From Ovis canadensis (Eukaryota; Chordata; Mammalia; Artiodactyla; Bovidae): 64,000 nt of DNA. The notes under the pieces are model-generated. The model worked only from the letters and a program-made list of their open reading frames with translations. It made no database searches and was not told the origin of the DNA. Below, piece by piece: positions 21,068-24,000 of the stretch. The translations under genes were made by a program, and so were the position numbers. The stretch is taken from NCBI RefSeq assembly GCF_042477335.2, contig NC_091247.1:7958501-8022500 (forward strand), read 5' to 3'. Position 1 is the stretch's first letter. Every line of letters begins with the position of its first letter.

Positions 21068-24000
21068 CTACACCAGGCCCTCCACACGCAGGGGCGGCTC
21101 CGTGATGCCCAGCTCCTGCCGCAGAGCCTGCAGGGGCTGTTCCCAGCGCCGCTCGTAGTACACGCTGAGGACACACGGGGCTCTGCGGCCATTCTCAACT
21201 GCCCATGGGATCAGCTCCGAGATCAGCAATTGCAGGCTCCTGTGGGGCCGCAGAGGAGAGAGAAGACAGAGGACCCGGGGTCCTGAGTGCCAGGCACGCC
21301 ACCTGCCCTGAGCCGACGCGCGTGTCCTTAGTTAATCCGTGCAGACAAGAGGAGGCAGTTCCCAGCCCCACTTTTCAGAAGAGGAGGCAGAAGCTCAGTG
21401 AGGTAAAAGCCCTGTGCTCGAAGCCACACATTTTGAACACGCCAAAGCCCAGCTTTAAGTCGAGGGCTCCCCCACCTCCAGAAACTAATGCCAGACTGCA
21501 TCCCCAGGAACCTGCACCGCCCACCCCCAGCCCCAGGTTTCCTGACCCAGCTATTCTCACTCGATACAGGGGCCTGGCCCGAGAAACCCTCAAGTTCTAT
21601 GAAGCGTCCAAGCTTCACGAAGCCTCATCCTGGAGCCCCTGCGCCGGGCCAGGTTCACGCTCTGCCCTAGCCTTCCCATCCTGGCTTCCTGAGATCCACT
21701 GGGGCTGCTCAGAAAGGCTGTGGGCTCTTCCCATTTCCTGGAGCCCTGCACTTTCCCCCAACCTCTCAGCCCTTGAGAACTTACTGGGCGCTGAGTTGGA
21801 TCGGTCCGAAGAGTGCACTCAGGACGCACATGGGCAGGCCGGTCTGGACAGCCTCAAACCATTTCACCACGATCTCCCCTGGCAGGCAGGGTGGGGAAGT
21901 GAGTGAGAAGTGAGGACGGGCCGGGGGAGGAGGCGCCAGTAATGCTTAGGACAGGGTGAGGCATCTGCTCCACTCCGATCTCTACCAGGGGTCAGCAGTG
22001 CCCAGTCCCGGCCTGTGCTGGGCCTTGGGGCACTTGGCTTGGGGTGGGGGGAGGAGGGTCCAAGAAAGAGAAGGAGGCGGCAAGGGCTGGAAAGGAAGCT
22101 TGGGGTCAGGGTACGGGACTCCAAAAGCCAGGCTGAGGAGTCCAGGCCTTCGGGAACCACTGAGGGTTTCAGAGTGTGGGGAGCCCAGGTGTCTGGACAC
22201 TGCCACATCAGTGCAGGAGCTGTCAGAGGCACTGGAGGTGGAGGATGGGGATGTGTAGCCCAGATACACCACGATGTTTGGGTAAAGTGAAAAATGAAGC
22301 ACTGGGTCAGCTAACTGGTGAGCAGCTGAAACAGATGTGCCCTGACCTGGTCCTGCAGATAGACCAGGAGACAGGCTGAATGGAGGGCCCGGCACCACCC
22401 AGGCCCCTCACTGGGTACACTCTACCCCATGCCCCACTGGGTACACTCTGCCCCATGCCCACTCTGGAAGCATCCAGGGGCTGCCTGCTGGCCAGCACTC
22501 ACCCAGGATGTTGGTGGGCATGCCCAGCAGGGTGTGGAGCATGTCATGGATCTCCCGATACCGCTGGATCACGTATGCCAGCTCCTCGTCGTCCACGAAG
22601 CGGGTGGGTGCACGGGTGTCTGGGGAGACCTTCTGATGATCATGAGAGTGAAATCGCTCAGTCGTGTCTGACTCTTTGCGACCCCATGGCCTGTAGCCTG
22701 CAAGGCTTCTCCATCCATTGGATTTTCCAGGCCAAGAATACTGGAGTGGGTTGCCATTTCCTTCTCCAGGGGAATCTTTCAGATCTAGGGATCGAACCCG
22801 GGTCTCCTGCATTGCAGGCAGATTCTGTACTGTCTGAGCCGCTGGGGAAGCCCTCTGACAACCATGAGCCCTCCCTAGACCCCTTCTTCTTGGTTCCCGG
22901 GGTCCAATTTCCCAGCCTCCCCTCGACTCTCAACCACGCCACCAAATTCACACCCCACCAGAACTATCTCAGGACTTTAGGTCTGTCTGCAGCTGCTGAC
23001 AGGGGAGTCTGCAGGCAGGGAATATAAGGGGCACCCCCTTGGCCTACCCCAACTCCCACAGGATGTACAGCCCCTGCTAGAATCTCAGAAACCCCTGGAG
23101 GGGAGAGCGAAGCAGGAGGTGTTTTCTGATACAGAGTTTCAGTTTTTACAAGATGAAAAAGCTCCCGTGATTGGTTTCACAACAATGTGACTATATTTAA
23201 TACACTACTGAACTGCCCAGTTAGAGAGGACTAAGATAGTAAATCTTATGGTGTGTTTTTTTTTTGGAACCACAACTGGAAATAAAATGAGGGGGGAGGA
23301 GAAAAGAAGCACCCAAGGCCCCCACTTCTTCAGATGAGCTGCTCCCAGCCTAGGGTGCTCTTTCACCTTGACAATTCCTACCTGTCCTTCACAACCTGGC
23401 TTAAGTGTCCCTTCTGCAGGAGGCTGCCCCTGACCTTCAGACAGATCAGGTCCACGTTATGGTCTCTTGTAGCATCCGGTAATTTTTTGTGGCATCTGAC
23501 ACGACTGTGTCGTGATGTTTGGTGCCCGTGATTGTTAATGTCTCTCGTTCACACCAGCACTGTTGGGTACAGCAGCCAATCATGGCAGCCACCAAGGCTT
23601 GAATGTGACAAGTGCCAACTGAGATGTGCTGCATGTGTGAAATACACACTGGAGCTCCAAGACTCGGCATGACAAGAATAATGTGAAATCTCAATAATTT
23701 TATACTATCGATTACATACAGAAAGGGTATTTTAGCACACGAAAACAAGATATGTTATTAAAAGTAATTCTATCTGTTTCTATTTTGTTTATCTGATGGC
23801 AGCAGATTCTAAATCCCCTTCATGGTGTGCATGCTATTGCGGTAAACAGTGTTGCAGCAGCCGGTCATCAGCCCAGGACCGGGCTCTCTTGTTCTGTCTC
23901 CAAGGCCTGGGAATCAATTTACATCATCCTGTAAACGCAGGAGTAAAAGGCCAGCCCCACTTTCTGACCCCAGGCAGGGATGGCAACTGTCCTTCTGTTT

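Follow-up and report, generated by a model that had tools for sequence, protein, structure and literature searches.

Can a mobile element take over the splice acceptor of a conserved gene and leave that gene apparently intact? This question is raised by exon 5 of COQ4 in the window, the whole stretch of 64,000 nucleotides of Ovis canadensis DNA analyzed here, in which a SINE adjoins the exon (Table 1). We conclude that the SINE very probably inserted on the exon 5 acceptor, that the downstream copy of the duplicated acceptor is probably the one that works, and that the SINE tail probably supplies its context.

Table 1. Features at the COQ4 exon 5 acceptor (positions in the window).
Feature	Position	Strand	Basis
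COQ4, seven coding exons, 265 residues	31296 to 21068	minus	gene model, frame open
COQ4 exon 5, 130 nt, 43 residues	22503..22632	minus	gene model and Pfam Coq4 match
Proximal (downstream) target-site copy, CTCATGATCATCAG then A, with acceptor AG 22634-22633 and first exon 5 base	22632..22646	minus	repeat comparison, gene model
Bov-tA-type SINE, 207 bases, gene-sense, B box GGTTCGATCCC, 3' tail GACTGAGCGATTTCACT adjoining exon 5	22647..22853	minus	genome copies, alignment
Candidate branch points in SINE tail: A at -26 (22658) in ACTGAGC; A at -17 (22649) in TTTCACT	22649..22658	minus	motif scan, inferred
Upstream target-site copy, CTCATGGTTGTCAG then A, ancestral acceptor and first exon base	22854..22868	minus	repeat comparison, protein frames of other mammals
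Former 3' end of intron 4, rich in purines, GGGTCTAGGGAGGG	22855..22929	minus	homologous to other mammals' intron end
Insert matching goat X2, 174 nt, 58 codons, open; acceptor tgcctgcaatgcag at 22807-22820	22633..22806	minus	protein comparison
Sequence that use of the upstream acceptor copy would add, 222 nt (74 codons) forming an open, in-phase frame	22633..22854	minus	translation

The COQ4 gene model

The exons of COQ4 were located with the human protein as the query. Asn134 is the last residue encoded by exon 4, which closes in phase 0 (27948, donor gtgagt), and exon 5 begins with AAG GTC TCC (Lys-Val-Ser). Exon 5 is matched by Pfam Coq4 (E 2.4e-19) and carries HDMLHTLLG, which we take to be the zinc motif. 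A comparison of exon 5 with solved structures gave zero matches at E up to 1. One scan each of genomic contigs and of viral contigs for COQ4 yielded no confirmed relatives. At exon 1 we observed an apparent GC donor (CAG/GCAAGC, 31217-31232); a goat protein model (P0002) has four residues fewer at the end of this exon, which fits a GT donor 12 bases earlier.

A SINE between two copies of the exon 5 acceptor

The sequence-only reading had placed the SINE between imperfect direct repeats of 15 bases, the one next to exon 5 including the exon's AG. Both points hold: the repeats (TCTGATGATCATGAG at 22632-22646 and TCTGACAACCATGAG at 22854-22868) are identical at 12 of 15 positions, all three mismatches are transitions, and equally similar windows at the same spacing occurred in 27 of 200,000 random pairs. 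The duplicated target thus contains the acceptor AG. The SINE begins with GGG and the duplicated target may run into those bases, 15 being the shortest reading of its length. When the 2.97-Gb assembly was searched for copies of the SINE and 40 of 6110 candidates were scored, one of these places being the window copy itself, at least 39 further copies were found, with 85-89% identity along most of the SINE. Target-site duplications were seen by eye beside four aligned copies (L002, L003, L005 and L006). Compared with the consensus of seven close genome copies and seven window copies, the SINE carries 16 differences in 202 positions; this consensus is a biased yardstick for dating. Its tRNA-derived head is recognizable by GGTTCGATCCC at SINE position 56, presumably the pol III B box. 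The family name Bov-tA is our assumption, the comparison having been made with copies from the genome itself. SINE positions 136-207 have many short matches within the window, which together with the 39 genome copies would be compatible with a Bov-A unit; the Bov-A unit is common to Bov-tA and other repeats, according to excerpts of PMC7890360.

The empty site in other mammals

Evidence that is independent of the repeat similarity, and stronger, came from a comparison of the two flanks with COQ4 sequences of other mammals, using the frame that runs from the SINE into exon 5 as the query of a protein search (120 of 329 matches listed). The 111 new rows (P0233-P0343) were scanned for the exon 5 start VSPDTRA..FVD together with a translated flank; bird-type, truncated and non-COQ4 rows were left out, and 22 frames qualified, all from other contigs and several possibly from the same species. 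Among the matches listed, HGCQR or HVCQR precedes VSPDT in 16 of these 22 intron 4-to-exon 5 frames. The window itself translates to GRAHGCQR upstream of the SINE and to RFHSHDHQK in the proximal flank, and the ungapped scores of the 16 frames range from 34 to 85 against the upstream flank vs -14 to 0 against the proximal one. Two of the 16 (P0244 and P0254) are from pig, as indicated by 17 residues in common with Sus scrofa P0004, and one is presumably human. The remaining six frames fit neither copy well, five of them ending in VLQK and one having a flank of only six residues.

These frames show, as protein and not as DNA, an empty site in other mammals, in which the sequence now upstream of the SINE joins exon 5 directly. 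Because 16 of the 22 match the upstream copy and not the proximal flank, the SINE landed on the acceptor itself. Since other mammals mostly carry HGCQR, the three repeat differences and the change Arg135Lys arose on the proximal copy. The earlier proposal that the insertion duplicated the exon 5 acceptor is borne out by these SINE-free frames, pig included, and the proximal tract, whose presence in SINE-free orthologues had been named as a refuting observation, is not matched by the same 16.

Acceptor strength before and after insertion

To compare the old and new acceptors, we used a rough scoring matrix over two windows, -20 to +1 and -14 to +1. Over the longer window the score rises from -2.05 for the old site to 5.10 for the newly inserted one and is 5.05 today; over the shorter one there is no change (old 3.19 vs new 3.14), so that by this rough matrix the gain is confined to positions -20 to -15. 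We do not propose that the proximal copy later improved in compensation, as its changes leave the score where it was (5.10 to 5.05). Directly before the old acceptor the sequence is rich in purines, with GGGAGGG in the window and Gly/Arg-Glu codons among the 16 frames, and the intron ends of the 16 frames could score at best 1.85 or less with any choice of codons. The five VLQK frames could reach 4.6 to 7.1, and therefore their old acceptor need not be weak.

The former pyrimidine-tract sequence, which the sequence-only reading had put about 220 bases upstream, lies 222 bases away, and the layout of the sequence agrees with its suggestion that the present tract is made of the SINE 3' end and the duplicated target. 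Between the two copies there are 20 AGs, none of which beats the proximal AG on the -20 to +1 score, while three (22806, 22784 and 22690) exceed it on the -14 to +1 score. Because the old tract is 222 bases off with 20 AGs in between, the SINE itself would supply the branch point and the tract. The idea that a mobile element replaced the acceptor context of this exon thus stands as far as the new tract is SINE-derived, but damage to the site is not clear and the longer score improves.

Could the SINE nevertheless have crippled the acceptor, so that most transcripts lack exon 5 or reach it through cryptic sites and the normal product is in the minority? The proximal acceptor is indeed the weakest of six in COQ4 (5.05 vs 8.61 to 14.97), the first part of exon 5 is missing from a red deer protein (P0039), which would count only if deer carry the SINE, and SINE-caused exon skipping is described for dog FAM161A in excerpts of PMC3976383. 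However, the frame of 265 amino acids is intact, protein models of camel (P0035) and the cat Prionailurus (P0051), for which no SINE is evidenced, likewise have odd joins before exon 5, and the old site had a still lower value on the longer score. We therefore consider a crippled acceptor improbable, and favor a working proximal acceptor.

SINE-containing and other isoforms

A search for proteins of the region that includes the SINE (120 of 326 matches listed) returned, among the matches listed, a single COQ4 protein with SINE sequence, the goat predicted isoform X2 (P0002). Its insert consists of 58 in-frame residues between Asn134 and Lys-VSPDT, begins after the AG at 22807-22808, inside the SINE, and is identical to the window translation at 55 of 58 residues, because of which we infer that goat carries the insertion. 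This model also bears on the possibility that splicing goes mainly to the upstream copy of the acceptor and gives COQ4 a 74-codon SINE-derived insert. All 222 nt in question are open and in phase, and the upstream AG retains its former context, but the sole SINE-bearing COQ4 protein starts instead at an AG inside the SINE, no protein with the 74-codon insert was found among the matches listed, and P0001 (95% identical to the model and probably bovine by its residues) joins Asn134 directly to Arg-VSPDT, which would count only if its genome has the SINE. Main use of the upstream acceptor is thus very unlikely. The earlier suggestion that the upstream gttgtcag might compete as an acceptor needs refining, since the goat isoform points to a different AG. 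As for cattle and deer, P0003, P0062 and P0162, like P0001, have retained Arg135 and contain no SINE sequence, but the insertion may still be present in the genomes. Least credible of all is that the flanks are similar by chance and the SINE sits in an older intron with the same acceptor: three mismatches in 15 and 53 of 20,000 equally similar random pairs when shifts of up to 4 are allowed on both sides leave some room for it, but the rarity of such pairs without shifts and the alignment of the upstream copy with the intron end of other mammals speak strongly against it.

COQ4 models of deer and buffalo add a cassette exon, and a banteng model a shorter form. Window positions 24228-24275 match the cassette exon of fallow deer (with related residues in buffalo and only the start in banteng), are open and are followed by GTAGGT; we presume that this segment resembles antisense MIR.

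COQ4 retrocopies were sought in the genome as a record of splicing, and of nine matches two lie outside the gene, neither of which reaches exon 5. One (L017:340-2277, C3 near 81.70 Mb) is 98% identical over 1853 bases, with window 31642-31553 joined to exon 2 (31141), intron 2 retained to 29295, an A-rich end and, by eye, AAGCTAGAGTTAT on both sides; these traits suggest a recent retrocopy, made from a truncated transcript that had a different first exon. The other (L018:216-735, C1 near 99.66 Mb) is an older, 87% identical copy of exon 4 and the start of intron 4, where the few bases before exon 4 resemble a directly attached end of exon 3, possibly a half-spliced retrocopy.

A model for acceptor replacement

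We propose that in an ancestor of sheep and goat, a timing suggested by the goat model, a sense Bov-tA SINE inserted at the last 14 bases of intron 4 together with the first exon 5 base. The target was duplicated, which left one acceptor copy on each side of the SINE. The downstream copy, still joined to exon 5, would be the acceptor used in RNA, and the SINE 3' tail ACTGAGCGATTTCACTCTCA most likely provides both the branch point and the pyrimidine tract. The old tract was purine-rich and weak. The SINE tail is richer in pyrimidines, and the insertion may therefore have been tolerated and may even have made the acceptor stronger. In-frame exonization could arise from AGs inside the SINE, as in the goat X2 model. 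The outcome would be a lasting and apparently harmless replacement of the acceptor. More tentatively, the 3' tail of a sense Bov-tA might be a portable module of branch point and pyrimidine tract without an AG, so that a SINE duplicating an AG-ending target could replace a constitutive acceptor by a single event and even turn a weak one into a better one; that acceptor turnover by SINEs is a general ruminant route is a possibility that we raise as speculation.

Comparison with known insertions

Literature searches for COQ4 with goat and SINE, or with retrotransposon and splice acceptor, found no paper in the collection searched, and PMC9581764 was set aside as a source on COQ4 exon 5, the exon 5 passages in its excerpts concerning COQ5. 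The closest parallel is canine merle, in which, as excerpts of PMC7349775 describe, a SINE-Cf lies at an intron-exon boundary of PMEL; like the COQ4 insertion, it shows a 15-bp target duplication with the acceptor, together with a cryptic acceptor in the SINE and exonization, for which the COQ4 counterpart is the predicted goat X2 isoform. The merle SINE-Cf belongs to a variant allele, runs in reverse orientation and determines the phenotype through the length of its poly(A) tail, whereas the COQ4 SINE is in sense orientation and without poly(A), is present in the assembly and in the goat protein model, and leaves the gene apparently intact. In canine FAM161A (excerpts of PMC3976383), a SINE likewise lies 15-16 bases before exon 5 between 14-bp repeats, with the putative branch point displaced more than 300 bp upstream; there the insertion causes exon skipping and is disease-associated. 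A target duplication can also furnish a splice site for introners, which create new introns (PMC9860276, in part), while the COQ4 case replaces the acceptor of an existing one. Similarly, Alu elements close to exons can alter splicing and are underrepresented in a 100-bp zone, as stated in parts of PMC6326789, but the COQ4 SINE occupies the acceptor itself, in a gene that seems normal. The other SINE insertions on or near acceptors that we found in these partial sources are disease or coat-colour alleles. In COQ4, which is a conserved gene of coenzyme Q, one can still read both the remnant of the former acceptor and the duplicate that probably works now, an arrangement that offers a before-and-after example of single-step splice acceptor replacement.
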